In this document: piece after piece, positions 2,621 through 41,440 of the stretch | Position numbering within the stretch: the first letter of the stretch is position 1 | How the letters are laid out: every line of letters begins with the position of its first letter | NCBI GenBank assembly: GCA_020091685.1 | Contig: CM034594.1 | Location: forward strand, 41,486,015-41,550,014 | Direction: 5' to 3' | Length of the DNA: 64,000 bases | DNA from: Lutjanus erythropterus | Lineage: Eukaryota > Chordata > Actinopteri > Lutjaniformes > Lutjanidae | Notes under the pieces: model-generated | Told to the model about the DNA's origin: nothing | The model's input: the letters and a program-made list of their open reading frames with translations, nothing else | The model's database searches: none | Position numbers and translations under genes: made by a program

Positions 2621-3330
2621 ACAGAGAGAAGGAGAGACAGACAAAGTTGTGCATTACAGTCATCACTGTGACAGTACAAAATTTCATGACCAGTGCAGCA
2701 ATTGTAAAAAACCACAATATCTACACAGGAAGTGAGTGGGCGTCCCTTTGAAAGAAGAACTCAAATATCACTTCATAACCTGACAGCAGCCACATCTTGA
2801 CCTAAAATAGGGCCACATATACGAACAGTATCACGCACAAATTCCCTCTGGACCTCTGAGACCTTGTTCATTGAGCAAACACTGCATTGGCACACCAGCG
2901 CAAAACACCGCAATGTGAATTCACTCCAAGTTTAGCAGCTTTAAAAGTGCTATCAGGCATACTTTGTTAAGTGTTATGAAACATCTTTTGGAGATGGTCC
3001 GCTCTAGTCGGGGAGTAAGAAAAGATGACACAGTTTCAAACGCAGAGAGCCAACTTTAATTATTCAGCTAAAACTTTAGATCTTAAGATACTGATCCCAT
3101 CATACTAATAAGACAGCTGTGGGTACAATGAAGGCAGACTGGGGATACTGTGGTGAGGCAATGAGAAGCTCTTTCTTATCTGTCTGTTCCTTTTCAGTGC
3201 TGACTGTGTAATACTACCTACTGCCACTGAAACCCACAAATACTGAGGAGGAGTCAGATCTGTGTTTAACCATATACAATTAGCAGAGTGGAGGTACACA
3301 TATGATCATTTTTGATTTGTAGAAGGAATG

Positions 3331-4180
3331 GGGCTCATGCCAGAACATTTTCATATTCTTGTCTCAAATTTCTGACTTTTTTTCGTAGGAAGGGCTCATA
3401 TGAACACGCCACATCAGATTCAACAAATGCTCGTAACTTCTGAAAAACAAGGAAATGATCCACCTGTGCATATTTGGCTGCACGAACACGACACTTGAAA
3501 ATTAGCATAATTAATGCCCCAATAATACCATATATGGTTGCGCTTCCTGCTCCAGATGTCAGGAAGTGTTCATTCATGAAAATGGCATCAAAGAGAAAAA
3601 AGAAGAACTTTACAAGTTTGGAGTGTAATGCTGTTCTTTGAGAGATGCATAAAAGAAAATTAATAAAGGAATAAAATAAAGGAATTAAAAGACCTGCTAA
3701 ATCCAAGAAACGGGAAAAGCGAGTGCTGTTGCCATGTTGCTTGAAGGTCAGACTGAAATAAAGAGGACATATCTCAATTTGAAAATGACTTGAAAGAAAA
3801 ACAAAAACGAGTTTGGGGTGGTCGATGACTGCAGCAGGAGGAGGGGGTTAAGAGGAAGTTCTCATCGCAGAGACAGAGGACAGAATAAGTGAGGATGTTC
3901 ACCTGGACTGAGACTTCATAAACCTGCATGTGCAAATATACAACCAAACCTGACAGCAGCTAATAATACATCATTGAATGAAGGATGAGGGGCTTTATAT
4001 GTAAATTTACAATTATATTGTAATTTGAAATGTAGTCAAACAGGATAATGTCGACATAATTATGAAGAGTAATTTATTTTCAAACTCAAAATGTCTTCAG
4101 ATTAATGAAATGTACAGTTATTAGTGAAAAACTTCAGTCTGTATACCAGCAGACTGACTGCAGTGGTTCTTGCATGAGGC
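3331..4180. mobile_element. CTCATGCAAGAAC-type DNA transposon, copy A
   Basis: The left end reads GGGCTCATGCCAGAAC and the right end is the inverse, GGTTCTTGCATGAGGC. Several long blocks match the copy starting at 30.34 kb. Examples are the 'CCACATCAGATTCA' block, 'AATAATACCATATATGG' and 'TAGTCAAACAGGATAA'. The minus-strand open frame at 3335-3706 (123 codons) lies wholly inside it and I do not recognise its product. The superfamily is uncertain. Confidence 0.6.
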
Positions 4181-17240: not shown

Positions 17241-20200
17241 TTAGTGTTGGCCGCCGACAGAGCTGGCAGATGGGTTGTATGGTGCGATGACACAGAAGAC
17301 ACAGCCTGCCTCCTGGAAGGCCTGCCTCATCTCCACCTAGTGGGCCAAACACAGACTGCATCAGACAGCAGGGCATCGATTTACAACTCTGAACAGGTTA
17401 ATTACGAATGTAGCCCTGATCTTAAGATTGGATTTGTTAGGTTAGAGTCTAATTAAGCAAGAAATAAATGAACAAAGAAGCCATGGTCCACTCAGATGGC
17501 ACTTAATTTAGTTATGTAAGGGCTGGAGCTTTTGTTTCCTCGAACAGTAAGATTAAAGGTAGTAAAAATATTATTCTAGTGTACATTTGCTACATATATT
17601 ACTGGGTGTTGACATTTTGCATAGGACTGCTATCACTGTATAGTTTCACCTCAGTTTTATCTCCAGATCTTTTTCATTAACCATGGACTTCATTTGTCCA
17701 AGCCGTGAGACATCACACTGAACTTTTTTCAGTTATCATCTGTTTCAAATCATGCAAACATGTTAGTTATTGATTCAGAACAGAAAACAAGCTGCTCCTT
17801 TTTGTTTTCAAGTCACCTAAGTCATCTGCATGATATGGTAAAAAAGTAATATTCTGATTATTTTTGTGATACAATTAGTGGGAATTATCATTTTTGTAGT
17901 ACAATTTTAATTTTTTCTGAACAAAAAAAAACTATAGAAATCATGGTTATGTGACATTTATTGTGGTCTGTACCAAACAAACATGTTTTCTTTAATCTGG
18001 AAAACAAGATTTTTAGGCAAGAATATCTCTGCAGCACTACAGTACTTCTTCTTCACATATTTTCTGACCATATTGTCATTTCCATAATATTGCAATTAAT
18101 TGTGCAGCCCTAATCTAAATGCCAGATTGAGTACAAGACAGCTGTGATCATAAAACAGATGACTACTTCTAGGTGGGAATAATCTAAATTTGTTTTTCCT
18201 CCACTAAAACAATGACAAGAAATTAAAACTTTGTGCCTTTTAGAGATGAAGTCACAAATTAATGTGAAGATTTGCCACAACCAAAGTATCAGGCAGTGTA
18301 TCTTTGCAACAAACAATATCTTTCAACACTGGATATCTGCAAGGAAACACAAATCAAAGTGACTAAGCATCTAGCAGAGAAACTGAAGATGGTGTCTCTT
18401 GATTACATCAGACATTAGAAGGGAACTCAGACAGCGCAGACCTCTGCCAAGGCCTATTGTCCAGTCTTTTATGATATGTAAATGCAAGCTCAACCACAAT
18501 ATATGTCTGGATAGATTTCCAAAGCTATTAAAATTAAAATTATTACAGCTGAAGCCTCATCTTCTCAGCTGTGTGTTATTATGGACTTATTCACTGGCAA
18601 TATTTCACGTACTCAACATATATTAGTGAGAACCTGATAACATTCTCTTATCATGTGCATATGTACCTCAAGCACGCTGTGGTTGTAACAACTACTGCGG
18701 ACAAAGAACATGAAAATATCGCCTTTGTACTTTTTACTCAAGTTGTTGTCAGGAAGTACTTTCACTTCCTCTGCTTCACTGTCTCCACTGCAGCTTCACT
18801 GTTGTGTTTTGTTGTAATTCGTAATTAATTTAATTATGACGGGTTTATGTTTGCCACACACTCTGTGCTCCAATAACAGTTGAGTAAATGTGGTACCTCA
18901 GTACCACATCTGTAGTTAGGTAATGTTGGCAAAATGCTAGCTCACTAGCTGATGCCTGATGTAGATTAGCTAGCTAGTTAGCTAGTGTTTTGCTAGCATT
19001 CACTTTGAGCATGACAAGCTGAGAGCCATTTACTCCCATTATATTGGAGAAGAGGCAGACATCTCTAGGGCTGATATCTACAAAAATGCAAATCACACAA
19101 AAACTGTCTAGATGGATAAACAGCACTACAAGCCAGAGAACAAATCTGTATTTTTGGGTGGGGTTTTTTTGTATTTTGGGGTGGACTGTCCAGTAACCAA
19201 GAAAGACTTAGGAATGTCAACATGAAAATGAGGCTCTAAATCTCTGTCCTCAAATGGGAGTTGATACAGAACGTCAGCTAAAAACAATAACTTCCACGCA
19301 GTGCAGTCTTACCAGTCTTGCATTATCCAGACACAGACCCACCACTGCCCCTCCGCTGCCTGGTAATTTCACTGCGGAGCCAAACTGCAAGAAGCACCAC
19401 AAACTTTATGAATGCATAAACAAGTGCACACAAATGTTGAATAAAACATGCTCTGGTCTGAGCAGGCAGTGGAACCTCGGAGCACCTACCTGCTTCGCCA
19501 GCTGAACCATCTTGAGATTTCCAGGGCCCAGACACTCGTCAGTGTAGACAGTCCTGTGAGGATGTGTTGTTACTTTAGCTGTGAGTGATACTGTAACATG
19601 GAAGCCTCACGTCAAAATATGCTGTTTACCTCCGCAGCTCAAAGTTCTGGTCCATCAGTTGTGCCAGACGGCTCCAGTCCCTGTCCTGCAGAGCCGTCCT
19701 GAGGGAGGAATATTTTCAGTCAGTCATTTCTGTCAGAAACGTTGCAGCAACACTTTGCATGAGGTATTTCTTGGAGCTCACAGTGCATAAACATTTGACA
19801 CATTTCAGAAAGCCCAAAGCCTCTTTGACACTGTTGTGCAAAATGGAAATATAAATGATCCAATAGTTATTTATGTCTAGCCTTTAACCTGATATATTTG
19901 ACAAAAGCTCCATTGCTATTTATTGCAAAACTGTTGATCCACAACCCACTTAAAGTACTCGAACCAACCTGGCCTGATCAGTGAGCTCAGCAAAAGTCTT
20001 CATGGCTTCGACCACCAGAGGCTCGCCTGTGGAAAGACAGAGCAGCATTTTAGTACTTCATCAAACAAACCAATGTGTTTCCACTTTTATAACTGCTTAA
20101 AGGAACAGAAAAATATGTACTAAATATGCACATGGGCTGGCGTGTTGTTTTTAAAAAAGGACTGAAGAACTTTTGTGTGCTTACAGAAAACTGAAATGTT

Positions 20201-23200
20201 TTGCTCATAAAATCAGCAGCTTTTCTAACAGTAACAGTAAGTGACCATAAAAATGACATAAGATATTAGAACTGCAACGATCAACTGAATAATCAATTAT
20301 AAATTGATTACTAAATTAATCACCAACTAGTTTGATAATCATTTAATCAGTCTGAGTAAGTTTTTAAGGACAGAACTAAAAAAACTAAATTTTCTGAATT
20401 CCAGCTTCTTAAATGGGAATATTTTCTGGTTTCTTTATTCCTCGCTAATTTGATTATCTTTTGGTTGCAGTCAAAACAAGACATTTAAGGATGTCATCTT
20501 AGGCTTTGGGAAACAGTGACAAACATTTTTCACCATTTTCTGTTATTTTATAGGCAAAAAACTATTAATCGAGAAAGTAATCGACTGATTAATCCACTAT
20601 GAAAATAATTGTTAGTTGCAGCCCTATTAGACATAGAACAAGACTAATAGTCTCAATCAAACTAGCAGCTCTGTGAGGCCATACTTTGGCACAGCGTTGT
20701 TTTGAGCTAAATGCTAATGTTAGCATCCTAACATGCTCACAGTGACAGAGGAGTCTATGTTCCCAAGGTCCTAAGGTCCAAGACTGCTATGTTCTATGCT
20801 CACCCCTAATCCTCACCTATTATCAGAGCAAAAGTACACACATTCTTTACTTGAGTAAAAAAAAATAGTAAAGGTGAATAAGCATTCAAAGTATAAAAGT
20901 AAAAATTCACCTTCTGAATGACATTTCTACCAGCTGCTTCTGTTCAGTCAACTGAACCTAAACTCATATTAAAATTATTTGAAGACTATTAAAGTTAAAT
21001 CAGTCTAAGTTCAGATAAAGTATATACTGAATATACTGAAAATAATTAAGATTAAGGTTGCTCTAATTTGCAAATCAGTTTTCAATGTCAGCAACAGAAC
21101 CTGAAACATTATGAGAAACACAAGAACACACTTAGAGTCTAATTAAGCTCCTTTTTTTCTTTTGTTAGAGATTCTGTCATCTCCACTGGACGACCAAAAT
21201 CTTTTGTTCAGCCTCAGCAGAAGCTGGTTTTCTAAACCGTTTGAATCTAAGTGCCCTTCTGGGTCTAAAAAAATCAGCCCTGCAGTGCTAAAAAGCCTCT
21301 CACAGACAGCTGACAGATTGACTAGATGTCTTTTCTCCACAGGGGTCTCGCTCTCTGCCTGATTCATCTGTTATGTCTTTCATGTTGTTTTCTTCTGGAG
21401 AAGTTTGTCATGCTCGTGTGTGATCTAAACTGATGGATGCACCAAGGAATCATCTTTTCCTTGTGTTATTGTTCTTGTCCATTGAGGTTGAAATCAGTCT
21501 TGATGTTGGGAAGGCAGCGTACAATGATGCAAAATAAAAATAATCAATAATTGCCCTGAAATGTATTAAAACTTAACTAAGAAGTCTGTTTTGAAAATGT
21601 AAGGAGTAGAAAGTATAGGTATTTGTGTATGAATGTAGAAAATAAAAGTAAAGTTGGCAGAAAAATAACAACTCAAGTAAAGCATAGATACCTGAAAAAT
21701 GTACTTGAGGACAGTAACAAACTATTTGCACTTATAGTTACGTTCCACCTCTGCCTATTATGTGCTATATAGAGAGGTGAAGTCACAGCCCGTCTGGTTC
21801 CCCCATGGGACCTCGCTATGGAGAACATATGAACGGTAGTCTATGGTGAGAGACTAATCATTTTTGGATCCTGTTTGAACTGTGCCACGATTTACACATA
21901 TGATGTTGGTTAATTTAAAAGATTACAAGTCAAGAAAGTCACAGTTTGTTGTAGTTTAATTATGTAAAAGTGCTCAATGAACTACGTCTCTCATCTCATA
22001 CAGTACATGTCAGAAAGAACAAGTAAGGACCGTTGCCTGTCTGACTATATCCTTGTACAAAAACACTCAGGCATTGTTAGCTTTTGAAGGGAGAAAGTCA
22101 CGACATCACTTACACAACTTCTGGGTGTGTAGTCTTTCTAATTACAAATCCTCACAGACTGTCACCAAATTTTATGGCAATCCATCCAATAACTGTTTCA
22201 GTCTGGAGCAAAGTTGTAGACTCACTAACACACTGATGCACCATAACAAATGACTAATACCATCATCTCCTTTTCCGTATCAGAATCAAAACCATACTGG
22301 TCAAACAGTGGCTCCCTTGTTTGTTGAGGACTTTTTAGCAGTGACCTTTGACCTGCTGCTGTAATGTTTGACATACCACTGAGCCAGCGCTGTCTGATGT
22401 TGCTGTGGATGCGTCCAGAGTCACTGGGGTCGCTCAGGTAAGCCAGCCAGAAGGGTGGGAGCCCATTCATGTCCATAGAAACATAGTTTCCTGATAACAG
22501 AAAACACACAAAGACAAACATTAGGAAAGAAATTTGTATCTGTATTATTTACTGAGCAGCTACAGATGGACGGTGACTTCAGTACCGTAGCCCTGCTCCT
22601 CCATGAGGTCTTTGCTGAAATCCATGTAGACTAAACCTTCATACACCTGAAATGACAAGGGGCAGACAATTAAAGACAGGTATTAAATGAAAGACATCTA
22701 ACTGAAGTTTCTGACTCTGTTACTGACCTGCACAACTCTGTCCTGCAGGCCAGCAGTGATGAAAAGTTCATCAGTCTCCACGTTGAGGATGAAGTTGGCT
22801 CGGATTGGCTTTGGGAGATCCTGGAGTGTAAAATAAAAATATATCAATAGCTAAAGACATTTAGGGTACATTTTGTCTCATTTTCACATTTATCTTAAAG
22901 CTGCTGTAGGCAATTTGAACAAACACAATGCAAAATCCGCCTCTCTTTGCAACCCGGTTGACCTTTGTCGGTACAGAGTTACTGTGATTGGCCAGTTTAC
23001 ATGCTAGCAAACCCTGATTGGTTGTTTGATTCAGACCAGGTCCAGGTATCTTAAAAGACTAAATGCAAAGAGGTAGGCTCTCAGGAAGCCTTCAAGAAAA
23101 TATTGTTATTGACACACAATGGTCAAAATTAGTTATTTTGACCAAAGTTAATTAAAAATAATAAATTAATTAAAAATTAGAAGAAGAATTCTTTGGATAA

Positions 23201-26200
23201 GTGGTTACAACTAATGAATAAATGAAAGAAGAATCAATTTTATTCATCACCAACAATGATACATAGTATAGTGGAATTTGATGTCTGCATTTCAACCCAT
23301 TCCTGAGGAACAGTGAGCAGCCATTGGTGACATACGGGGTTCGTAGCAAAGGTTGTCGTAGGCAGCGGGACTTGATAGAGTTCTTGAGGACGTTTCGCCT
23401 CTCTTCCAAGAAGCTTCTTCAGTTCTGACTAACTGGTTGGAAGTTCAGGTATTAAACCTATGTGGGGTCGTTAACACCTTAAGGGGCATGCGACTCATGA
23501 GCCCGCCCTTCCATTGTGTTAACTGTCAGGGTCACCTGGGGGGAAGTGTGAATGACAGTCGTTAAGGTCTCTTGTGAGTCACTGACTCACACTGCCATCA
23601 TGTGAGTCATCAGAGTCACAGTTGTGTCTTAGACCTCCTCCTCTGTTGAGGGATGGCCATCCTAGGTTAACATAAATGGCCTATTTTATTCCTCTCTCAA
23701 ACCATCTGTCTTCCCTGGCCAGAATACGGACGTTGCCATCTTCAAAGGAGTGTCCCTTGGCTTTAAGGTGTAGGTGGACTGTTGAGTCCTGACCTGAGGA
23801 ACTGGCTCTCCTGTTTTGTGCTATGCGCTTATGCAGCGGTTGTTTTGTCTCCCTGATGTACAGGTCTGAGCACTCCTCATTACACTGGACTGCAAACACT
23901 ACACTTTCCTGCTTGTGTCTGGGTGTTCTGTCCATGGGGTGGTCACGCTTTTGCCTCAGGGTGTTGTAGGCAGGTGTTAATGACCCTGCAGAGGTTTAAT
24001 ACCTGAACTCCCAACCAGTCAGTCAGAACTGAAAAAGCTTCTTAGATGAGAGGTGAAACGTCTTCAAGAACAACCCCTCTACCTCCTGAGCCACAGCCGC
24101 CACAAAATGTGTAAAATTTCAGCTTCCACCAGGCTCTACAGTGCTGCTTTCACTGTGTGTAACTTCACTGGATCTGGAAGGAAATCTACTGAATTTGTAA
24201 TATGATAAGTGAAGTTGTCACAGGTTTTGATAATAGCAAATAGTGACAGACTCTGATGCCTTTGGTAAGCATAGGAGATGGGACAAATAGCCAACATTCT
24301 TACATGGTCTGTGATGTTGTAGAACTTCATGAGACACTTCAAGGTAGCTGAGACGATGGCACTGTGGAAAAAAATGTATATATTGTAAACACATTAGTTA
24401 CTGAATTGAAAAACTACCTTTAAATTAGGCTGTACAGATAGAAAATCATCAAACACAACTATTTACCTGCTTCCAGCGAGGCCCTTCATTAAAACACAGA
24501 GAAATAATGTCATCATTACATAACACTTTCACATTTGTGTTTTGAATCGTTTTTCAGCATTTGAACGGATTCTCACCACTTGCCGAGGAATGTTGGTGTC
24601 GTACTTCAGTGTGAAGTTCTGCTTTGTCAAAGCAATACTGCAGCCAAAAAAAAAAAACACACAGCAGCAGACACTGAATGAGCCCGAGCGGGGAAAGTGA
24701 CTGTCCCTATATGTGAGTGTCCTTAACAAATGACAACACAAACCAAAATAATGTCTTCTGCAGTGATTTGAAGCTTTTGCTTCATGTATTGTTAGTCTGA
24801 CAAATAGGGCCTATACATCTTATGTGCTTTAAAACTTGTCACCTCAAGGGCCAAGAGTATACAAGATAGTGAAAAGTAGTTCTTTATTGTTTGGGAAAGT
24901 TTCAGCAGTGTCCATGGTGATATTAGAGCATTTGGTAGGAACTGCACTTATAAAGGGTAAAGAGATATGCTAATGCTAATACTTGCTTGATTTGAATGTA
25001 ATTAAAGATCTGTATTCCAGTTATCTGCTTCTGATAAAAAATATACACAACCGCTTCTCAGTCCCTCCAGGAAGTTGCCACGTTGTGATTGCAACAATTA
25101 AAGCAAATTCAGCCAATCCCTGTGAATTCTGCACCACTCTGCAAGTGCGTCCAATAACCCCAACTTTTATGCAACTTTGACCAACCGTTGTAGTTTCCCA
25201 CGAGTTCCAGCAATCATAGCAACCCCCCTCACCAAGATCATACATATACTGTGCGTCTAAATGAACCTGCTCAGTGTTTTATTGTTTACTAGTTTGTTGT
25301 ATTATTTATTTAATTAATTAATTTATTATTTAATAGTTATTGACCTTTATCAATGCTCTGTGTACTTTTATTTTATTTTTTTTATTATTTTGTGCTGGTT
25401 TGAATTTTAGCTCCAATATTTTGCTTCTTTGTGAAATATCCCCCAAGTGAACTTCTTCATTTGGATTTAGAGCATATTTTGTTAAAATTTTTGTAATCCT
25501 GAGTCTTTCCAGTAAGATTAGATGGAACACTCATTCCTCATGGAATAAGTTGTCTCTGATTTCTAATTAAATATACAAAAAAGCGATTAAAGAAATTAAA
25601 AAAAAAAAAAAAAATCAACTTTTTTTGGTGCAATTTTCACTTGTTGCTGCAATTTCTTTGCAAAAATGATGGCACAACGATGGCAACATGCATCACAATT
25701 TTTTTAAAAACCTGCTGTGAAATGAGAAATTTTAGGCCGCAACAATCGCCAAAAAAGCCTGCAAAATCCTGGAGGGACTGTCTCGTAACAAATAACAAGA
25801 ATCACAGTGTCTCAGTTACTGATCTCACCCTTGTTTGGAACAGAACTGGTAGAACTTCTTACAGGTGGCCTGCAGCAGCCGCAGACCTCCCAGGTACCTG
25901 CAGTGGACGATGAACAGAATATTGTCAAAGAGCCTGAAAGTCTCTGATATATTTTTCAGCTCGCTGCGTGTACGCACCCTTCTTTCCTGCTGATGCAAAA
26001 CAGATCCTGCAGGCTTCCAAACTCTGTGGGGTCATTGAGCGGATGAGGGAGTAAAACCTGCAGAGTCACAGAAATTCACATGACTCTGCACCTTTTTCCC
26101 TGATTAAAGTGTTTTAGCTTATGAGCGGACGTAGACGTGTGCGTTACCAAAGTCTGGCTCTCCACTAGAGTGACCTCGGCCCAGAAGTTGGAGATGGACA

Positions 26201-29200
26201 TGGCGATGGTTTTCCCGTTGAAGCCGTCTGAGGGATTTCCCATTAATCCGACCCTGTGAGTCATCACATATTTGCAAGCGAATTCTTTCAGCATCTGTCA
26301 GGCTCTAACATTCAAGCGCTCTTGTTGTGAGTTACAAAGGAGAATGAGGCTTTTATTTGTGAAGAAAAAAACAGCAATCTGCACTCAAGTGAAGTGAGAG
26401 TCATCTGTGTTTTCTTACCTGGCGTATGATCGACATGTGATTGGTTTGGCAGGATTGTCTTGTTGCTTGGTGGAGTAGTGGGTGAGCCACTTGGTGTAGT
26501 CTGACAGACCCTGAGATGTCAAGAGGAAGTGTGTTATTAGAGGAAACAAAACTACAAGAGGGTTTTTTTTATACACAAACCCACAGCTGCAACAGAAAAA
26601 CAGCATCCAGTGCCTGTGTGGGTGCAGTGTAGAGTCAGCCAACTTGCCCTTAATATTAGAAGAAATATTAAAGGGAAAGTTCAACCTCAAAATCAAAAAT
26701 ACATTTTTCCCCTGGCCTGTTATGCTGTTTATCCATCTGGATATTTTTTGGCATGTTTTGCAAATATCTGCCTCCCCTCCAATATAATGCGGCTAAAAGG
26801 CAGCTGGTTTTTGGTTCTCAAAGCACCAAAAACACATTTGAAAAATCTAAAACCAGTGTCTCTTTCCAAGAATCATGACCCAGTAATTCAGGATAATCCA
26901 AATGTAGGAACTACTTTCTTTGTAGTAGAAAGAAAGTAGTTCTGATAGATTTTAAAATGGTTCCAGTAGATTATACTGCAGAAAGAAAGTAGTTATTCTC
27001 CAAACTCTATGTGCAATTCTCAAATTCACACTTGATTTTCACATATTATATGCATTTCCAGTGGAGTACATTGGTTTTGTAATGGTTTGTATTACTCTTA
27101 AATGCACGTATCAACATGCTCACTGAGAAAAAACCTTAGAATGCACAATAATGCACTCAATCATCCTAACTTTTCATATCTTTCAGTAGTCTGGCATCAT
27201 CATATATGTGCAGTTTTATGTAGGGACTACTTTCTTTCTACAGTAGAATCTCCTGGAAATACTTTCTTTCTAATGCAAAAAAGTAGTTCCTACATCAAAC
27301 TGCTCACAACAAGGTCTGTGGATTATCTTGAGTAATGAGGTCATGATTTCTGGAAAGAGACATTGCTGTTGAGTTTTCAAATGTTCTTTTGGTGTTCCAT
27401 CTAATTCCATTATACTGGCAGACCTCTCCTCTACAGCTGATATCTCCATAATTCACAACTCGAATTGAAACTATCTAGGTGGATAAACAGCACCACAGGT
27501 AAGAGGACAAAAATGTATTTTTGAATTTAGGCTGAACTGTCCCTTTAAACAGTAATAAAGAGACATTTTACTTTCGAATCATACACTTTTCACACAGGAG
27601 TTAAACGCTTTGAGTGAGTGACTGAAGCCTTTGGCAGAACAAATGAAGTGTTGTGCTGCTCAGTGCAAACAGTGACTGCTGTCTGTGTTTTGAGAACTGC
27701 AACAGTGTTTCTGCAGTTGAAAAAAAAAAACTATAAGAAACTTATTCTCCAGGACCAATAACATGCACTCAGATTCATCTAGTGTAGACTTTCCTCTGAA
27801 GTGACAGCGGATATTTTGAGCAACAGTGCCCAGTTTGCAGGTGATGTCACATTACATGATTTCTGAGTAATGCTTCAACACACTGCAATATGCTTTGATT
27901 TATAAGATAAAGGGGAACTCCACCAATGTTAGAAATCAAAGTGTGTTTCCAGGTGTTGGCGAGCGTTATGTGGCTCCAGAGGGAGGAGCGTGGAGTTTGA
28001 TAAATTACCTCAAATGATGTGACTTGAGTCAGGGTCAGTTGGGTCTTAAGACTACAAGTTTGAAAAAGAAAATCTCAGGGTGTGGTGTTAGAAGTGAGCT
28101 TACCAGACCTCTGTAGCCTGCTACTAGCATTAAACACTCTCTCTGAATGGACTGTCAGCAATCCATTTTGGGTAATATAGGTGCCAGATTTTAACAAGGA
28201 AGAATGTGTGGAATAAAAAAGATGACATCTCTGATTCTGCTCCATCGACCATTGTGAGTCCAACAATGTTACTCCTGTAAAGGGACAGTTTGGATTATTT
28301 GAGGTTGGGTTGAATGAGGTAATTTTCCACAGTTAGTATATGACCCCTGTTAGGAGACGCAGCAGAAGTGCTGGTGTAGGAAGCAAAACAAAAAGAAATC
28401 AACATCAGTTTAAGTGTACACTGTATTTAGAATATTTTCCCTGCTTTACCTTGCCATCCAACATTTATCTTCCTACACCAGTGCTCCTCTTCTGCTTCTT
28501 CAAAGTGAGGACATACCAAGCACTGCAGGTAATACACCGACTAAAGATAAAAACCTGATACAACCCACCTTTAAATAATCCAAAGTATTCCAGAATGATC
28601 ATCAATCTTCCTATACAGAACAAACTAAATGTAAAATTAATAATGGTCATCTTCGGGGGTTCATCTCTTGCCTTCATCCATTATAATCTATGAATTTGAA
28701 GGAAACGCTCTGCGACAAAACAACATAAAGCACAGCTGATGAACTGATTGAAGAATACAAACCACTTGTCCGATGAGCTGGAAGCCTGTAGGAAGCTTCA
28801 TCCCAAACACGTCCAGCTGCTTCTCATTAATGAGCCACTCCTGAAGAGAAAGGAGCCATAAGAGTAACTGGTTATTACTCAATCAATTCATGATTCAGGC
28901 ACTGATGTCATTTGGGTTTGGTAAAATAGGCCTGCACATAATCTACTAAGTGATCTGAGTTTTACCATCATTATGATTAAACAGATTAAACTGAAATCAC
29001 AGCAATTAGAATCAATCTTCCCTATTAAACACAATGGTTTGTCTAATAATTGTCTATGAAGTTACACAGCAGATCTAATATCAGTAGTTAATTTAACTTG
29101 TATAAGAAAACTCAGTTTAATTAAGCTGGTGAAAGCTTATGGTCTCGTGACTTTGAGAAGTAAGGGCATTCAGGTGTAAGTCAACCTACATGATATAACA

Positions 29201-32200: not shown

Positions 32201-35200
32201 TGTGGGTAATTCTCCTAAATCACTCATACAAGACAACTTAAGAGCATATCTGTTCGGGGGACACGTGACCTGTAAGCAAGATGGCTGCTTAGCTTTGTCG
32301 CTCTCGGCCCGTCCTCCCCAATTCATGTAATTAAACAGTCAATTAAACTTCTTCCGCGCTTTACACACAAGCTTTTGAAAATGCAGTCGCAGAGGAACAA
32401 ACAATTCCGGGCCTCCAAGCTAACCGACACCAATTTGAGTGAAAGCTCAGCTGACCCGAACAGTGGTACGGAGGATAAAGTAGCTAGCACGATCAAGTTA
32501 GCTATGTCCGAGCAGCGGCAATTCATGGAAGACAAGTTCTCTGAACTGAACGACACACTTGACAAGCTGCGCCACGACATCTCCACCTGTACAAAGGATG
32601 TGTCTAAACTGCGCTCTGACACTGTAAGTCTTTCCAAGCGTATGGACAGCACAGAGAAGACCAGCAACGACAACAGGTGTAAGATAACGGAGCTGGAAAC
32701 CAAACTCAGTGATTTGGAGGATCGGAGTCGCCGCAATAACATACGAATCCGAGGGTTACCCGAAGGCGCGGAAGGGTCCAACGCCTGCCAGTACATAGCC
32801 ACATCCCTTTCCAAGTGGTTCCCTTCTTTAAGTGACCAGAATATTAAAATTATGAGAGCTCACCGCATTGGACCCCAACGTGGCAACCCATCCTCCTCAT
32901 CCAGGACACTCATCATGCTTCGCTTTTCCGACCGCGACCGGATTCTACAGGCCGCCCGACGTTCTCCCCTGAAAGTCGGCAGCAAAGACATCATCTTCTC
33001 GGCGGATTACAGCAACTACACGGTTACCCGTCGTCGCGAGTTTTCCACATCCATTGAGGCTGCGAGGAACCTGGGATTCCAGACGTTCCTATTGTACCCC
33101 GCCAGGCTGAAACTGATCCGGGGATCTGCTCAACATGTTTTCAACACTCGCCAGGAAGCTGAAGACTTTATTAACTGTCAAAAGGATAAGGATGACTAGG
33201 ATTGATAACCTGTGGTCACAACTGCCATTGGGTCACCTTTTCTGGTTCGTCTTCTCGCTGTGTGAAAGCGAGCACCAACAGTTAAGTGTGTGAGCTGCCT
33301 CTGATGTATTTTTACTCTTAACATCAGCAATTGTTACGATACTTATTCTATGGTGTTTAGATAATTAAGAACTTATAGCGGAATCACTAATTTTTTGCAT
33401 TTTACTTTTTTGGTCTATGTGGGTTTAATTTCTTCTATGGTTTTCATATTAAGAGGATCAGTTATTTTAACCCACATCGTTGCACTCGTTTAATTAAGTT
33501 GCTGTGATGATGCTTCTTAATTGACTGTATTTCTACTATCAGGTTGGATAGATTATTTTGTACTAGGGAGATGGGCATTGTTGATGGGGCTTAGCCAGCT
33601 TTCTCAGTGCCAGGTGTCTAATAGTAGGGGGTTTCATTTGCTGACAAGTTATACCACCAGTGGTGGTCATGGTTTTTTTTTTCTGTGTTGCTATTTGTAA
33701 CTCAGAGGGAGTCAAAGTTCATGTTGTTATATGGCGGCAGGGGGGTGGGTTTGTTTATTTTATGGCCTGGAAAACATCCTGAAAAGTTATTTATTTTTGT
33801 TGTTTACTCATCTTTCTTTTTTGATTCTTGTAGCATGGCATTGTCTGTCCACCTGGGTTTTGTCATTCAAGGTGTTATCTGCATTCATTATTTTGCTGAG
33901 ATTCTGACATGGTTTATTCTCTCTTACAACTACCAATGTTATTTCCATCATAACTACTTTACAGATTGCTACTTTTAATACAAACGGAATCAACAATCCA
34001 ATCAAGCGTACTGCTTCTTTAGACCTTCTACACAGACATGAAGTGGATGTAGCATTTATACAAGAATCTCACTTGAGAAGCAATGATGTTTCCCGCTTTA
34101 GTAACAGAAACTATTATGTGGCTGCCTCTAGCTCTTTTACATCTAAAACCAGAGGCTCATTGGTGGTGTTAAGACGTTCTTTGTCACTAACCATCTTGGA
34201 GAACTATGGGGGTGGGGATGGTCGTGTCTCCTATATCAAAACAAATATTGCTGGAAAAAAGGTGGCATTTGTATCTGTTTATGCACCTAATGATTTTGAC
34301 CCTGACTTTTTTACACACTTAACAGTCCTTTTATCCAATATGCAGGATTTCTCACTTGTACTGGGTGCGGATATGAATGCCACTGTTAACTCTGTCCTTG
34401 ATCGTTCAAGATGTCCGAGTCAGCAGTCTCAAAGTCCTTCTTCTGCCACCCTGAATAAACTCATCACAGACCTGAGCCTTACCGATACATTTCGAGCTAT
34501 TAACCCTTCAGTGAAACAATATAGTTTCTACTCGCATAGACATCAGACTTATTCTCGTATTGATTATGTATTCGTCTCTGCCTCACTGATATCAGAAATT
34601 CACAGTGCAATAATATTACCGACCTCTCTTTCTGACCATAGTATTATGTTATCCAAAATTACCCTGAGGGATACACCTAAAAAAGCTGCCTGATGGCGTC
34701 TCAAGGTTTCATTGTTAAGCAACAAAAAATTCTGTGAGTTTTTCAGGAGTGAGTTACGTGAATTCGTGTCATTAAATGTGGGCTCTGTTGATGATCCTTG
34801 CATGTTCTGGGGTGCTTTGAAAGGCTTTATAAGGAACACTGCATTATCTTTCTCATCTCATCAAAGTAAGGTCAGATTGGCTAAAATAAATTAACTGGAG
34901 GCAAAATTGACTGAATTGGAGCAAAAACAACAAGCAATATTTAGTGACAGCCTAAAACTAACCATTAATGTAGTACGTTCTGAACTGAACTCGCTGTTGA
35001 GACAGAGAGCAGAATTTTTAATGTTGAGGACAAGGAGGAACTATTATTTCAATGGCCCTAGACCTAGCCATCTTCTTGCTTTAAGGTTAAGGCAAAATGA
35101 AAAAGTTGCAAACATCACATCAATTAATTCTGCAGGTGGCCTTCTAACAAGCCCTGAAGATATTAATACAGAATTTAGAGGGTTTTTCTCTAGCCTTTAT

Positions 35201-38200
35201 TCCTCAGAAGTTACTGGGCACACCGGAAAGAGTCAGGACTTTATGAGACACCTAAATCTCCCTTCATTATCACAGGAGGAAGCAGACCATTTGGGATCTC
35301 CTATTACACTAAATGAACTCAAAGCGGCCATCTTTGGTATGAAGAGAGGAAAATCTCCAGGGTGGGATGGTATTCCACCTGCGTTTTACTCAACCTTCTG
35401 GGAGGAACTTGGACAGTACATGTTAAATATGATTTTAGCATCTGTAGAAAAGGGCTCCTTTCCTGGGGATGTCAATATGGCTCTCCTTGCTGTCTTACCT
35501 AAACCAAATAAAGACCCCACTCTATGCAGTAGTTATAGGCCTTTAAGCATTCTGTGTGCTGAAGTAAAGGCGTATGCCAAAATCTTGGCCTCTAGGATTG
35601 AGCTACATATGACCAAACTTGTGCACTATGATCAAACTGGTTTTATTAAGTCCCGTCCAGCAGGAGACAACATTCGCAGACTACTTCATGTAATACACTT
35701 TTTGAAGGATATAAAAACACCCTGTGCTGTGTTGTCACTTGATGCAGAAAAAGCCTTTGATCGACTCGAGTGGAAATACTTATGGGAGGTCCTCGGTAAA
35801 TTCGGCTTTGGTCAAGGCTTTATCAACTTGGTGAAGGTACTCTAAAAAAAACCCATCAGCCATGGTGACAGCCAACAATATATTATCTACCCCAGTCCCC
35901 ATCTCTAGAGGTTCCCGCCAGGGCTGTCCACTCTCCCCTCTTTTGTTTTCTTTAGAACCTCTAGCCCAAAGTATCAGACAACATCCCCTTATTGAACCCA
36001 TTACTTTTTGCAATACACACCACTATTTGTCCTTATTTGCAGACGATATATTACTGTATGTCAATAATGCCCCCTTCTCAATCCCTCACATTCTGGATGT
36101 TTTTGCCCAATTCAGCTCTTTCTCCGGATATAAAATCAATTGGTCCAAGTCCCAACTAATGCCCCTTAACTCGGCCCTAAACTCATCTGCACTTCCTTCT
36201 CACATTCCTGTTGTTAAATCTTTCAAATATCTGGGTATTGATATCCATCCTTCTTTACAATCTGTTTCCACTAAGAACTTTAAAAACATCCTGAAACGAG
36301 TTGAGGAGGATTTGGTCAGATGGATGAAATTGCCTAATTCTTTGTCAGCTCGAATTTCCATAATTAAAATGGATATTCTCCCCAGAATTAATTTCTTTTC
36401 CAATATGATACCTCTTCCTCCTCCAATTGGCTATTGGGACAAACTGACCAAAATAATTTCTAAGTTTATGTGGGGTGGTAAACAACCACGTATTAGGTTT
36501 TCCACTTTACAAAGAAGGAAAGAAGAGGGTGGCTTGACTGTCCTAAATTTTAAATTGTATTTTTGGTCGTATGTGCTCCGTCCTGTGTCAACAAGGCTTG
36601 ACCCCAATGCTAAGGTCTCATGGAGAGCAATAAAGGAGAACCTTGCCCACCCCCATCGGCTACAGGACCTTGTTTACTCTGCTGTGCCTCCTAAACTTGC
36701 TAAGCGCCAGCTCGGTCCAATTATGTCCTTTTTATTATCAACATGGCGGCTTGTAGAAAAATACACTCAATCTTTAAAATGGCACGCGCACAGCCCCATA
36801 TTTAATCATTTCAATCTTATTACAGGAGGAATCCCCTTTCAGTTCTCACAATGGTCTACAAAAGGTGTTGTTATTTTGTCAGATGTATGGGATGCTAAAG
36901 GAATGAGATCATTTGATGTTTTATGTTCTATGTATAATGTCCCCAGAAATTCATTTTTCTTCTACCTCCGCCTCAGGTTAGCAATGAAAACTTATGGGGT
37001 TCCTTGGGGTAAACCTTTAACAAGTCATCCACTCCATTCTCTTCTTGACGTGGAGGGTCACACTAGAGGCTTAGTATCAAGGTTATATTTACTTTTAAAT
37101 TCTATCTGCAAACCTCTGGCAATCAAACATGTCTGGAGTAGGGATCTTGGTTGCTCTGTAGATGACATTTGCTGGTCAACAATTTGGAATAATTTGGATG
37201 GTTCATCGAAAAATCCAAACCATAAACTGATACATTTCAAATTTTTGCATAGGATGTACTTAACACCTAGAAAACTCCATTTAATGAAGCTCATACCCTC
37301 TCCCAACTGTGAGCTCTGCCCAAATGGGGAAACAGGGTCTTTCCTACACATGTATTGGAATTGCCCAGGGGTAATGCATTTTTGGAGAATGGTATCCTCA
37401 ACTTTATCTAATCTCCTTGATGTTAAATTGCCATGTTGTCCTAAGCTGCTACTGTTGAATGATACTTCCTCTTTGGGTCTACCGTCCCATCGTATACATG
37501 GACTTTTAGTTGGTCTGACAGCGGCAAAAAAAAATGTTAGCCCTTCGTTGGCAGCCTCCTCACTGTCTGTCACGGAATCACTGGCTACATTCTCTGTTGG
37601 ACATTGCATATTTGGAGTTGTCAGTGGCAAAAATGCATAATGCTAAACAATCAACTGTCAGTGCCTGGATCTCTTTTACCGACAAAGTAAAAGAGCTTTT
37701 GGATTCATAGTTCATTCTTGACTATTGTTATGTAATTCTACCATGCTGTTTAAAGAGGGGAGGTAGGAAGGGGAGGGAGAAAAGAGTGCAAAGAAAGATA
37801 ATAAGCAAGTCTTATTTTTCTTATTCCTTACCTTTTTATTTATAATCAATTTATTTTCTTTTTACTTATTTATTTAGTAATCTAATTTATTTATTTTATT
37901 TCTTTTTTCATTTTATTTTATTATTTTCTTCTCAGTTTCATTCTATGTAGCTAATTGTATTAGATGGGATGGCCGCCAGGGGTGGGAGTTGGGTTAAAAT
38001 GTTTGTATTCGTATTTGTATGTTTATATGTTTTTCACTCTATATCAATAAAACAGTTGATAACAAAAAAAAAAAAGAGCATATCTGTTCGTACAAGTGGT
38101 TCTTGCATGAGGCCAAATGTGTCTGTTTGGTGACTGTTCGGTCACTACTTATAAAAACAAACAAACAAAAAAAAATGATGTAACTATGCATTTATGTACA

Positions 38201-41200
38201 TATACAGCTGGGAAGTGAGGTCTCATCATAATGAGACACTTGGAGACACATTATAAGCATGTTGTACTTTATGAGACTTAGGAAAAAAACTTGATGTCAC
38301 CTGTGGGTGTCAGAGCACACCTCCACGATGCCCCTGGAGCTGCTTTTCTCACTTTCCTCCAGCTCGTAGTAAATGATCAGCTCTCCAGGCTGCAGCACAC
38401 ACACAAAAGGAATCAACTACTGCAAGTTTCTCATGACTTTTCTGTCACAGATGGTAGATGACATTACTTGGTTTATGTCCATTAAAATGAGTGTATTCAT
38501 TCATTCAATCTTTATTTAAACTCAAAAAAACATTGTGGTAGAGACCTCATTTACAAAGTAGCTGAGTAAAACAACAAAATAAAATCTCAAAGACAGAAAA
38601 AACACCAAATAGAAACTTACATAAAAGTGGCAGCAATAAGTAAAAAAATAAGAATAAATAGAAACCACAATAATAAATAAAAACAGTCAAAATTTAAGGA
38701 ATATGAATTAGCCAAAACTGGAACACCTGCAAACAAAAATGGATTACAATGAGAAAAGCTTTAAATTGTTCGGCATGTTGTTCCACGCTGCAGGTGCTGT
38801 GTGTGTGAATAAACTTGTCTGCAAAAGGTTCTGTTGCACATATTTTTAAACTGTCGAACATCTCACCTTTGACCTGAAGAAGCGGATCACCTGAGCAATG
38901 TCAAAGTTCTGGTCTGCACACAGCATGTCTCCTGCAATCTGATCACACAAAAAGAATACACTCTTTGTACAGGTTACACCAACACAATCAAATGTAACTG
39001 AGCAGCTGTGTGATTGGACATCCTCATCGTACCACCATGATGTCATCCTGCAGCTTGCGGCTGCGTATGGCCAGCTGCAGGTCAGCCACGGCCCCGAGAC
39101 GGTCCTCCAGCGTCGTGCTGCCGTCATTCACCACATTTTCCATGGGGAAATCGTTAGCTGTGGCCCAGCGCTCATAGTGTTTATACCTGCTCAGGGTAAT
39201 GGAATGAGAACAGAATTAAAGCTGCTTCAGCAACAAACTGTAACAAGACAAATCAACACAGACTGGGTCATCATGCCCGAGTCAGAACTCACTTGTCTGC
39301 ATTAGTGACCAGATACACCTCTGTGAACAGCTGTCGCCTGGAGACAGATAACAGGCAGTTAGATGTTAAAGCAGTAAATGTGTTACTGGGGATACAAGAG
39401 AGGACTCAGAGGATAATCAGGGGACGCTTGCCACTGTTACGCACATGTTGACTGTTTCCCACCAGAAGTCCAGGAGCTTCTTTCCTCCAGTGCCAGGGAG
39501 TAAGGCCTTTGGTACTCCAGTCAGGTGGCTGTATAAACCTGTGTCATCATTCTGGAGAGGAGAGGAGAGGAGAGGACATGATAGGATAGGATAGGATAGG
39601 ATAGGGTAGGGTAGGCGAGGTGAGGCGAGGCGAGGACTCAAATAGTGGTACAATCTGTCACTTATTTTCTCAATTAATTGATTAATTAATCCTGTCAAAA
39701 TCATGTCAGTTAGAAAAACAGCGTAGAACACATGAATGTACCTCTATTTTTTCTTTCTTTAATGATTAGCCTGTCAATCATTTTTTCTATTAATCAATTA
39801 GTTGTTTGGGCCATAAAATATCAGGAAATGGTAAAAAAAAAAAAAAAGAACAAATGTTGACTAGTATTTACAAAAGTCCAAGATAATATCCTCAAATGTC
39901 TTATTTTGTCCACAACCCAAAAATACTTTTTACATTATATGTAACTTACAACTTCTATTCCACTACATTTTCAAGGCAAATGTTGTTAATTTTACTCCAC
40001 TACATTGATCTGACAGCTTAGGTTACTAGTTACAGTTGTGTCCAGTAAAAACCAAAAGAGGGGTGATTTTGAATTACTGGAATATTTGTGATAAACTGAG
40101 AAACCTCTCCTACTTTTTCAGCTAAATATGATTTTTAAAAAATCAGCTGGGAAATGCATCATCACAGAGCTGAAGACAGGACTGTTTTTCTGGAACCACA
40201 AATAGCTGACTTTTTAAAGATACATGTCATCGCAAGACAAGGATGCTACAAACATCATGATCTTATACAATATGAGGCAACATCTAGAACAATAAAATAA
40301 AATATACACATAAATACAACAATATTAATCCAAAAACATTCAATGTAATAGTAAACACTGACAATTTTACTGCACGAGGAATACTTTAATTTAGGATGTT
40401 TTGATAATGTTAATGATATTTAAATAAATATTTACATACTTTTACTTCAGTGTGGTTTTGACTGCAGGACTTTTACTTGAAATTGAGTAATTTCAGTGTG
40501 TATTTGTACTTTTACTGAAGGGTCAGAATACTTCTTCCACCACTGATACTAACAAACACACCCTGTATGTAAACATGCTACAACTTTTTTTCTATGCTGG
40601 CGATGTAACCTTAAGTGATACTTTGATTAAGATAAATAAATAAATGATGGCTATTCCCGAATACAGTATATGTGACTGACTGTGTAATATATGTACTGTT
40701 ATATCGATATATTCACGTGAGGTCTACATGTAGAGAACTTACAAGCTTTGAATTAATACTAAATGTGACTATTGGCTAAACTATTTAAACACTGAAGTCA
40801 AACTCTGGATGACACGTGGACTCTCAGGTGTTCCTGAACACAACATGTCCCGCCCACTGCTTTGAAGGTGACGTTAAGACAAACTTAATCAAATTAGCTA
40901 GCACCGTTATGTTGTCTTTCTTTCTTCGTAAAGACACGTACTTGTTAAAATGTTCGAGGCTCTACGTGGCAATTTTAGACTAGCGCCAGAAATTCGGCTA
41001 CATAGATACATAAATGAATGGTACTTATTGTCACAAAACATCAACTTTCAATAAATGGTCCCCTTCGAATTCCTCGACTTCTATTCCACCGCAATGCTCG
41101 ATGGGGGGCAGTGTGTGTGCGCTGTGACCCCATGATAATAATGCAATTTTATAAAAATTACAGCATGTTTGTTGAGTCAGGTGTAAGCCGAACGTAGTCG

Positions 41201-41440
41201 TGCACCCCCATGATTCCGTACATGTCCTTATTGATGGTCTAACTGGTAAACATGCGAGCTGACACGTTACGCTACGGCGAAGTGTCAGATTTTTTTAAGG
41301 CAGTTCAGTGTACTGATGACTGCTTATGAACTTTGCACTGCTTCGAGTTATCTCCTTTCTACTGCAACATTCAAGCTACTCACCTTAATTTGTGTCTCTA
41401 AGACGGTGCCGTGGCCGGCTACCAGCAGTATGCAGATCAT
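17241..41440 (-). CDS. gkup: Bifunctional glucuronokinase / putative UDP-sugar pyrophosphorylase
   Basis: Twenty-three exons splice in phase to 621 residues: 41384-41440, 39445-39551, 39293-39337, 39033-39186, 38867-38938, 38301-38389, 29257-29413, 28766-28840, 26419-26510, 26148-26253, 25978-26057, 25829-25897, 24577-24637, 24467-24483, 24304-24361, 22728-22820, 22586-22646, 22377-22490, 19969-20026, 19630-19698, 19490-19553, 19313-19384, 17241-17336. The start is the first in-frame ATG after a stop. Residues 1-250 form a sugar nucleotidyltransferase, with LLVAGHGT, PKALLP, VNDG, IAGDML and FLEKP motifs. Residues 283-621 form a GHMP kinase like plant glucuronokinase, with GLMGNPSDG, RQVGLAGSSAIV and LPGSGGAVVGL. 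The expected cytosolic pathway is glucuronate to glucuronate-1-phosphate to UDP-glucuronate. Zebrafish has a gene of this name and architecture. The substrate order is inferred. The exon 7 donor is the weakest point of the model. Confidence 0.88.
17840..18113. mobile_element. AGGGCTGCACAATT-family MITE, partial
   Basis: Lies in gkup intron 22 and ends TTGCAATTAATTGTGCAGCCCTAA. It shares 'GTGGTCTGTACCAAACAAAC' and 'GCAGCACTACAGTACTTC' with the copy at 186-568. The left terminus is not recognisable. Confidence 0.55.
19040..19196. repeat. Fragment of the TTAA/GGGACAGTTCA repeat
   Basis: In gkup intron 22. Shares 'GATGGATAAACAGCACTAC', 'ATATTGGAGAAGAGGCAGA' and the TGGACTGTCC end with the larger element at 26672-27544. 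Confidence 0.5.
20267..20626. mobile_element. hAT MITE (AGGGCTGCAAC family)
   Basis: In gkup intron 18. The ends are TAGAACTGCAACGATCAA and TTAGTTGCAGCCCTA, and the interior matches the 4688 copy. The flanking octamers TAAGATAT and TTAGACAT agree at six of eight positions, which fits an old target-site duplication. Confidence 0.7.
20850..21756 (-). mobile_element. Decayed hAT element with hAT C-terminal domain relic
   Basis: In gkup intron 18. The outer parts carry the 'TACTTGAGTAAA' and 'GTTCCACCTCTGCC' phrases of a common fish element. The minus-strand frame at 21143-21367 reads ERLFSTAGLIF, then LENQLLLRLNKRFW. This matches the conserved dimerisation (hATC) segment at the end of hAT transposases. 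The rest of the transposase is missing, so it is a non-functional remnant. Confidence 0.6.
22080..22240. repeat. Possible old interspersed repeat fragment
   Basis: The phrases 'AATTTTATGGCAATCCATCC' and 'TTCAGTCTGGAGCAAAGT' recur across fish genomes as I remember them. I see only one copy in this window, so the call is tentative. It lies in gkup intron 18, just beyond exon 18. Confidence 0.3.
23380..24085 (-). mobile_element. Penelope-like element, internally deleted, with inverted terminal repeats
   Basis: Lies in gkup intron 15. About 75 bp at 23385-23460 (GAGGACGTTTCGCCTCTC, then GTTCAGGTATTAAACC) is repeated in inverted orientation at 23990-24073 (GGTTTAATACCTGAACTC, then GAGAGGTGAAACGTC). 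Between them the minus frame 23681-23935 encodes SVVFAVQCNEECSDLYIRET, then KQPLHKR. This is the GIY-YIG endonuclease segment of Penelope retroelements. The usual YIG is YIR here. The reverse transcriptase is absent, so this is an inactive remnant. Confidence 0.7.
24467..24483 (-). other. gkup: gkup microexon 14, 17 nt
   Basis: GGCCTCGCTGGAAGCAG lies between an AATGAAG acceptor and a GTAAAT donor. It encodes GLAGS plus two bases of the next serine. It is needed to join exon 13 (ending PRQV) to exon 15 (starting with the last base of a serine codon, then AIVSATLK) in frame. The joined product is the GHMP phosphate-binding motif RQVGLAGSSAIV. Skipping it would both shift the frame and delete the ATP-phosphate loop. 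Confidence 0.85.
26672..27544. mobile_element. TTAA-flanked repeat with AGGGACAGTTCA-like ends
   Basis: In gkup intron 8. TTAA (26668-26671) precedes AGGGAAAGTTCAACC, and GGCTGAACTGTCCCT precedes TTAA (27545-27548). The ends are inverted repeats, and TTAA on both sides fits TTAA-targeting elements such as piggyBac-type MITEs. Inside, ACTACTTTCTTTCT and its complement occur several times. Relatives are at 19040-19196 and 52872-53150. Confidence 0.55.
29480..29640. repeat. Short MITE-like repeat beside gkup exon 7
   Basis: GCCTGTTTACACCTGGCATC with GATCAGAGCACAAGTGGACA resembles a common fish MITE. It begins about 65 bp upstream of the exon 7 acceptor on the minus strand. The ends are not well defined. 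Confidence 0.35.
31010..32092. mobile_element. Element with GGGCTCTGCAACC / GGTTGCAGACCC ends
   Basis: CAGGGCTCTGCAACCTGTGG on the left and AAAGGTTGCAGACCC on the right are inverted. Aligning copy A (TATACC/AGCAGACTGAC) with the sequence around this insert (GGATAAC...AGTAGCAGACTAAC) shows it interrupts copy B. About 513 bp remain after removing the nested hAT at 31171-31740. No coding capacity; probably hAT-like. Confidence 0.6.
31171..31740 (+). mobile_element. hAT element with 8-bp TSD and BED-finger remnant
   Basis: A 570-bp element with perfect inverted ends TAGGGATGTCCCGATC and GATCGGGACATCCCTA. It is flanked by ATAAAAAT at 31163-31170 and 31741-31748, an exact 8-bp duplication. The plus frame from 31508 reads MSAVWGYFKLDS and then CNVC, the start of the BED zinc finger of a hAT transposase. 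The transposase core is deleted. Near its left end it carries two TCACGTGA palindromes. Confidence 0.88.
32375..33199 (+). CDS. LINE ORF1 protein (L1-type RNA-binding chaperone)
   Basis: An intact 274-residue frame. Residues about 45-120 are heptad-like and charged, predicting a coiled coil for trimerisation. They are followed by the L1 ORF1p RRM start (LEDRSRRNNIRIRGLPEG, near 117-134) and a basic C-terminal domain with MRAHRIGPQR and RDRILQAARR. This layout is that of vertebrate L1 ORF1 proteins, which coat LINE RNA in cytoplasmic particles. No stop or frameshift is present, in contrast to ORF2. It belongs to the transposon and is not a host gene. Confidence 0.85.
   Translation: MKMQSQRNKQFRASKLTDTNLSESSADPNSGTEDKVASTIKLAMSEQRQFMEDKFSELNDTLDKLRHDISTCTKDVSKLRSDTVSLSKRMDSTEKTSNDNRCKITELETKLSDLEDRSRRNNIRIRGLPEGAEGSNACQYIATSLSKWFPSLSDQNIKIMRAHRIGPQRGNPSSSSRTLIMLRFSDRDRILQAARRSPLKVGSKDIIFSADYSNYTVTRRREFSTSIEAARNLGFQTFLLYPARLKLIRGSAQHVFNTRQEAEDFINCQKDKDD
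33946..37710 (+). pseudogene. LINE ORF2 (endonuclease-reverse transcriptase), disabled
   Basis: The apurinic-type endonuclease starts around 33960 (ATFNTNGINNP, FIQESHL, LGADMN, SRIDYVF and a final SDHSIM). The reverse transcriptase follows with GKSPGWDGIP, YRPLSIL, SLDAEKAFD, GSRQGCPLSP and the catalytic FADDILLY near 36040. There is a C-terminal CELCP/HMYWNCP zinc-knuckle-like segment near 37305-37365. The frame is broken by TGA at 34691, TAA at 34892, a shift at the A8 run near 35844 and another at the A9 run near 37527. The true end is TAG at 37708. The catalytic residues survive, but no full-length protein can be made. Confidence 0.88.
39552..39640. repeat. AGGAGAGG / GATAGGATAG microsatellite
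   Basis: A purine-rich run of GGAGAGGAGA units followed by ATAGGATAGG units. It begins directly at the acceptor side of gkup exon 2. On the transcribed minus strand it forms an unusually long CT-rich polypyrimidine tract ending in CTCCAG. Confidence 0.85.
39662..40556. repeat. Two abutting repeat fragments in gkup intron 1
   Basis: 39662-39920 is a truncated AGGGCTGCAAC-family piece (ATTAATTGATTAATTAATCC, then 'TATCCTCAAATGTCTTATTT'). 39925-40556 carries the 'TTCCACTACATTTTCAAGGC' and 'CAGAATACTTCTTCCACCAC' phrases of a common fish hAT-like element, ending near CACTGATACT. Confidence 0.5.
40714..40818. promoter_or_regulatory. Two CACGTG E-boxes in gkup intron 1
   Basis: CACGTG occurs at 40714-40719 inside TCACGTGA and at 40813-40818 inside ACACGTGG, about 620-730 bases downstream of the gkup start codon. 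USF, MITF/TFE and MYC family proteins bind this hexamer. Whether either site is used is unknown. Confidence 0.3.

Follow-up and report, generated by a model that had tools for sequence, protein, structure and literature searches.

The locus raises the question whether one fish protein can carry out both successive steps that lead from glucuronate to UDP-glucuronate. We analysed a window of 64,000 nucleotides of the Lutjanus erythropterus genome (contig CM034594.1), i.e., the whole stretch of DNA under study, and rebuilt the gene from its raw sequence. On the minus strand, 23 exons between 41440 and 17241 combine in frame to encode a single protein of 621 residues (Table 1), which reproduces the exon number, length and limits of the original prediction. 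The coding sequence comprises 1866 nt including the stop codon (ATG at 41440, stop codon at 17243-17241, minus strand), all 22 introns are of the GT...AG type, and the other two frames of the joined sequence hold 24 and 28 stops. No stop or frameshift is found within exons 1-8. The splice model is based on genomic DNA alone. Its exon 7 donor (TGG/GTTCGT) is poor with a score of 2.3, and a GTAAGT located 4 nt further on scores 3.2; with the latter, translation would stop at residue 233. We kept the GTTCGT donor, since four other donors (exons 8, 10, 17 and 20) score below 2.3 and the in-frame 7/8 junction (GRFW/EWL) aligns gap-free with the prokaryotic relatives (GRFIQWL).

An exon-by-exon search of the species' own genome (938 Mb, E <= 0.001, 19 candidates scored) placed 18 of 18 matches within the gkup locus, i.e., the gene is single-copy in this genome. 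A seabass paper describes gkup as single copy across teleosts. The search of the genome also rules out a second nucleotidyltransferase gene with its active site intact (none at E 1e-3), and two separate genes are ruled out by the single open chain of 23 exons. Microexon 14, which encodes most of the GLAGSS motif, is a spot where automatic annotation could fail.

Table 1. Exons of the fish gkup gene and the mobile element in its intron 6 (positions within the window).
Feature	Position	Strand	Remarks
exon 1	41384..41440	-	residues 1-19, start ATG, first part of nucleotide loop (AGHGTVLETQIK)
exon 2	39445..39551	-	remaining loop insertion and PKALLP lysine (K34)
exon 3	39293..39337	-	
exon 4	39033..39186	-	NDGST..RLGA motif, common to prokaryotic relatives
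exon 5	38867..38938	-	AGDM, first active-site Asp (D125, kept)
exon 6	38301..38389	-	
exon 7	29257..29413	-	EKP (E181, K182, kept); weak donor GTTCGT
exon 8	28766..28840	-	GFQLIGQ; L249 replaces the relatives' second active-site Asp
exon 9	26419..26510	-	linker leading to kinase half
exon 10	26148..26253	-	kinase motif RVGLMGNPSDGFNGK; R283 at exon 9/10 join
exon 11	25978..26057	-	
exon 12	25829..25897	-	
exon 13	24577..24637	-	
exon 14	24467..24483	-	17-nt microexon, most of GHMP phosphate-loop motif GLAGSSA
exon 15	24304..24361	-	
exon 16	22728..22820	-	AGLQDRVVQ including D440 (kept)
exon 17	22586..22646	-	
exon 18	22377..22490	-	
exon 19	19969..20026	-	
exon 20	19630..19698	-	
exon 21	19490..19553	-	
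exon 22	19313..19384	-	kinase GSGG motif
exon 23 and stop codon	17241..17336	-	
non-LTR retrotransposon	32300..38080	+	intron 6 (8.9 kb), opposite strand to gene, outside protein; limits approximate, by eye

The retrotransposon in intron 6 opens with a frame at 32375-33199, for which all coiled-coil matches are sub-threshold; endonuclease and reverse transcriptase pieces follow in three interrupted frames (34043-37640), and an A-rich 3' end lies near 38075. Beyond the gene, an exon at 45014-45142 (minus strand) matches upstream stimulatory factor 2 (PDB 8ia3, E 4.7e-12), which makes it probable that gkup has a USF-type gene of the same orientation upstream of it. Two further frames belong to mobile elements, namely a DDE_3 transposase (55756-56385, E 1.4e-16) and a BED zinc finger (57696-58595), and a tandem array of a 21-base unit spans 2102-2620 (about 25 copies, 72% matches).

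With regard to domain content, both enzyme signatures sit in one chain, as had been proposed, and each exceeds its Pfam cut-off: NTP_transferase at residues 32-217 (E 2.4e-10, 40.9 bits vs. cut-off 21.2), GHMP_kinases_N at residues 367-448 (E 1.1e-7, 32.4 bits vs. 22.3) and GHMP_kinases_C at residues 522-600 (E 5.9e-8, 33.4 bits vs. 21). The NCBIfam galU and archaeal GlmU models match the protein weakly (E 2e-4 and 1.5e-5) and far under their cut-offs. The name suggested for checking, gkup, fits as well; zebrafish gkup has the same domain order and encodes 619 aa. Neither the gene nor the fusion of its two domains is new, and we take the Lutjanus erythropterus gene to be a teleost ortholog of the zebrafish one.

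The zebrafish gene was cloned and assayed in 2014 (Gangl et al., DrGKUP, 619 aa; PMC3938481), and assays of zebrafish and Xenopus GKUP were published there. The assumption that detailed enzymology is lacking is thus incorrect, and the main novelty claim of the original prediction falls because the ortholog had already been cloned and assayed. Glucuronate phosphorylation was demonstrated for both proteins; the zebrafish kinase has a Km of 31 uM for GlcA and 59 uM for ATP at a kcat of 1.3-1.4 per s, and among nine sugars it used glucuronate alone (PMC3938481). In standard assays, neither protein had any pyrophosphorylase activity; a wide choice of buffers, cations, nucleotides and cofactors did not change this, nor was activity seen in yeast. 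Full-length zebrafish protein gave trace UDP-GlcA after 70 h, and neither half alone gave any (PMC3938481). That paper proposes a UDP-glucuronate salvage route in fish and frogs, which is invoked for residual glycosaminoglycans in ugdh (jekyll) mutants; its authors treated the N-half as a putative pyrophosphorylase, considered it rather unlikely to be a pseudogene and had no explanation for its near-inactivity (PMC3938481). Given the negative standard assays and only trace product in 70 h, a working one-protein salvage route from glucuronate is not firmly established.

The active site of the N-half was compared with 27 prokaryotic (bacterial and archaeal) relatives, i.e., 16 from the Verrucomicrobiota-group, six from the Planctomycetota-group and five from plasmids (groups are labelled after each genome group's centre locus). 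The fish N-half matched 16/288 genomes of the first group and 30/246 of the second, six of these 30 being aligned, as well as 12 plasmid records, of which five were used. Matches in the Bacteroidota-group (33/296 genomes) were all weak (best E 5.6e-7) and are left out of the counts; most of those listed were partial and in long frames. A first scan of the species genome-contig collection with the fish N-half yielded zero relatives, and one of the 11 kinase-bearing genomes also matched it. Identity of the fish N-half to the 27 relatives has a median of 28.8% (best 33.6%).

The fish protein, represented by one sequence whose positions were matched to published residues by motif and profile, has the Pfam domain and keeps the PK lysine, the first Asp and the EK pair that occur in 27/27 relatives (K34, D125, E181, K182). 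Among 30 sites that are near-invariant in 21 prokaryotic relatives, 20 are kept. Two catalytic positions are lost. The loop Arg of the GXGXR motif occurs in all 27 aligned relatives (GYATR, GYGVR and similar) and is absent in fish, where the loop reads AGHGT-V and residues 1-55 hold no Arg at all. The fish nucleotide loop carries an 11-residue insertion. The alignment register of the loop is uncertain, such that either V13 or G24 takes the place of the Arg, with no Arg near either. The second active-site Asp (xDxG) is found in 26/26 relatives that reach this site (one row, Lactococcus, ends early); the fish has L249 and no acidic residue nearby (GFQLIGQ). This Asp of the relatives aligns with the DIG/DAG/DVG Asp of solved nucleotidyltransferases in five of the five alignments shown for a profile of six sequences (fish included), which matches 79 distinct PDB sequences. 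The AGHGT loop without the Arg common in bacterial relatives had been flagged as worth testing, and the absence of the Arg stands; it is not the sole loss, since the second Asp is also gone.

Published work on related enzymes bears on both positions. Exchange of the homologous Arg in KpUGP (R21A) leaves about 5% activity, and GalF, which is without this Arg among other changes, is inactive (PMC11796359); Asp210 of HddC holds waters around the Mg (PMC6981941). The 2014 study names some conserved substrate residues, introduced with 'e.g.', and neither the loop Arg nor the second Asp is among them (PMC3938481). The two lost residues are a new point and may be a candidate reason for the near-absent published activity. 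The fish sequence speaks against GKUP performing the second step efficiently.

To place the N-half, we used a tree of 46 rows, whose GalU rows were chosen by script, i.e., non-randomly. The fish N-half falls into a group (support 99/93) in which 4/7 prokaryotic rows adjoin a fish-type or galactokinase-like kinase gene, and it is split from the GalU partners of bacterial kinases (see below) at 100/100. Its branch is the longest of all rows (2.9 vs. a median end branch of 0.23), and the program warned of long-branch attraction between fish and Rhizobium; the place of the fish row within the tree is unsure given the long branch and the possible attraction to the Rhizobium row. An origin of the N-half from the kinase's GalU partner is ruled out by the 100/100 split and a best fish-to-partner E of 0.016. 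Viral carriers were found neither by pattern scans of viral contigs, which can detect close relatives only, nor by tblastn in phages.

The kinase half is conserved more strongly, i.e., its identity to 82 relatives is 39-48% (median 44.8%, best 48.3%). Of the 73 positions that hardly vary among the bacterial kinases, it retains 63, including R283, the GLAGSS residues, GSGG and D440, which we take to be the galactokinase-type catalytic Asp. The ten changed sites include Q354 and K565, where 82/82 relatives have K and R, respectively.

A plasmid of Rufibacter tibetensis (L009) carries a GHMP kinase that is 41% identical to the fish half, with galU as the next gene directly after it. The scan of the species genome-contig collection gave 256 stretches with kinase relatives, of which the best 80 were kept; together with Rufibacter this results in 81 loci. 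In 73/81 loci, the kinase has a GalU-type gene of the same orientation no more than 350 bp away, a share that may not hold for distant relatives since the sample consists of the best-scoring 80. Among these 73 pairs, galU comes first in 53 and the kinase in 20, with a median gap of -3 nt. One further locus (L033) has a GalU-type gene at 755 bp; of the other seven, four (L018, L024, L027, L038) show no such gene and three lie close to where their contig ends. The GXGTR motif is present in 67/73 partners by strict pattern and xDxG in 71/73. Of the six partners without GXGTR, two have GXGSR (Arg kept), one is truncated at the start of its contig and the remaining three have over-long predicted starts. 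From the 39-48% identity, we infer that the bacterial kinases act on glucuronate. Among the papers listed by a literature search covering few subscription journals, none dealt with a bacterial glucuronokinase. In two Aminicenantes loci (L018 7899-8996, L024 4721-5716), the kinase without GalU is followed by genes that look TRAP-type-transporter-like (by eye, from protein starts); perhaps this transporter imports the uronate.

Relatives of both fish halves occur side by side in one Verrucomicrobiota-group genome (G190; L098/L136), where a kinase gene (L136 1960-2979) is followed after 21 nt by a nucleotidyltransferase gene (3001-3741) with both Arg and Asp present. An N-half-type nucleotidyltransferase also adjoins a galactokinase-like GHMP kinase in L145, L147 and a Lactococcus plasmid (L005); the Lactococcus kinase was recognised by eye (GGLSSSA), and those of L145 and L147 match it. 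Within the fetched flanks, 3/16 Verrucomicrobiota-group loci have a kinase of one of these two types and 13/16 do not, so a sugar-1-kinase is only an occasional neighbour of this nucleotidyltransferase family. In the polysaccharide cluster of the Lactococcus garvieae plasmid (L005 5098-6666), an annotated hypothetical protein reads by eye as the galactokinase-like GHMP kinase; the nucleotidyltransferase relative directly after it is unannotated there and ends short of other relatives.

Given these observations, we consider it probable that GKUP is a working GHMP glucuronokinase whose fused N-half, having lost loop Arg and second active-site Asp, is a dead or crippled nucleotidyltransferase. 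The C-half would convert glucuronate and ATP to glucuronate-1-phosphate, as published for zebrafish and as the conserved residues suggest here. The N-half would descend from a bacterial-type family of sugar-1-phosphate nucleotidyltransferases, some members of which adjoin sugar-1-kinase genes, and would have little or no turnover after the loss of both residues. Speculatively, this half might retain the binding of nucleotide or UDP-glucuronate and regulate the kinase in the manner of GMPPA, a non-catalytic paralogue that binds GDP-mannose and inhibits GMPPB (PMC11228364). Another cellular pyrophosphorylase would then handle glucuronate-1-phosphate. According to a review, no broad USP-type UDP-sugar pyrophosphorylase has been reported from vertebrates (PMC6329318). 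We hold a wider joint reading tentatively, at somewhat less than even chance: a pseudo-nucleotidyltransferase sensing UTP/UDP-glucuronate gates glucuronate phosphorylation by the kinase, while glucuronate-1-phosphate is finished elsewhere or serves as signal or sink; and a bacterial glucuronokinase-GalU pair is widespread and unrecognised, whose kinase family together with a second nucleotidyltransferase family (sometimes beside sugar kinases) built the eukaryotic fusion.

Both halves might also be active, such that GKUP is a true bifunctional salvage enzyme whose second half needs a further cofactor, partner or modification. The retained Lys, first Asp and Glu-Lys are consistent with this, as are the bacterial relatives of each half, which can pair a kinase with a nucleotidyltransferase. 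Eukaryotic UGP2-type enzymes have a loop without this Arg and are still active, so another residue could stand in for it. The trace UDP-GlcA formed by full-length zebrafish protein implies that some N-half activity may exist, and the N-terminal domain is retained from fungi to fish (PMC3938481). On the other hand, Arg and Asp are both lost in fish against 27/27 and 26/26 relatives, the many conditions and cofactors tried had no success (PMC3938481), and the R-to-A exchange in KpUGP costs about 95% of the activity (PMC11796359), which renders this reading unlikely. That the N-half instead decays without function under relaxed constraint, to be lost like the whole gkup gene that is reported absent from mammals, we deem highly improbable. 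Its long branch, its lower identity compared to the kinase half (median 28.8% for 27 relatives vs. 44.8% for 82) and the lost active-site residues are what decay would predict, but exons 1-8 are free of stops and frameshifts, 20/30 near-invariant sites persist and zebrafish-Xenopus similarity is higher for the N-half (87%) than for the kinase half (63%; PMC3938481). Since the open frame is retained from fungi to fish and similarity is this high, the N-half does something.

We give hardly any credence to an error of the gene model at exons 7/8 or 1/2, i.e., to a true protein with intact active site or to two transcripts. The weak exon 7 donor and the domains of coelacanth and sea urchin, which are seemingly on separate transcripts (PMC3938481), point that way; against it stand the length-perfect match to prokaryotic relatives over exons 7/8, the fact that the exons in question (exon 8 for the lost Asp, exons 1-2 for the Arg position) are open and join in phase, and the length of 621 aa near the zebrafish reading frame of 619 aa. 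For the preferred reading of an active kinase and a largely silent N-half, the two lost residues provide a concrete, testable candidate answer to why the second half hardly works, which was left open in 2014. UDP-glucuronate salvage of fish and frogs may then not be completed by GKUP, and the bacterial kinase-GalU pairs, in which both enzymes of the pathway seem to be intact, are a possible positive control.

Compared to known systems, the bacterial kinase-GalU pair is like the fish protein in its kinase, whose gene lies beside a sugar-1-phosphate uridylyltransferase-type gene; it differs in being unfused and in its GalU-type partner, which is split from the fish N-half (100/100). The adjacent, same-strand pair of G190 has relatives of both fish halves but the kinase gene comes first, the genes are unfused and the nucleotidyltransferase has its Arg and Asp. 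Plant UDP-sugar pyrophosphorylase belongs to a different family. Together with the Arabidopsis-type glucuronokinase it performs the same two successive reactions (PMC3938481), with two separate proteins in contrast to the one fused fish chain. The similarity to GMPPA and GalF lies in a nucleotidyltransferase fold with lost catalysis, as proposed for the fish N-half, GalF also being without the loop Arg; both are separate subunits for other sugars and have no kinase fusion. In L-fucokinase/GDP-fucose pyrophosphorylase (FKP), both halves are active. Sugar and nucleotide of FKP (PDB 5yys, 9iit) differ from those of fish GKUP. Zebrafish GKUP shares with the Lutjanus erythropterus protein the order of N-terminal nucleotidyltransferase and C-terminal GHMP glucuronokinase, the length (619 vs. 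621 aa) and the lack of any other homolog found in its own genome (PMC3938481); in print, its N-half is read as a putative pyrophosphorylase, whereas the Lutjanus erythropterus sequence points to a damaged site.
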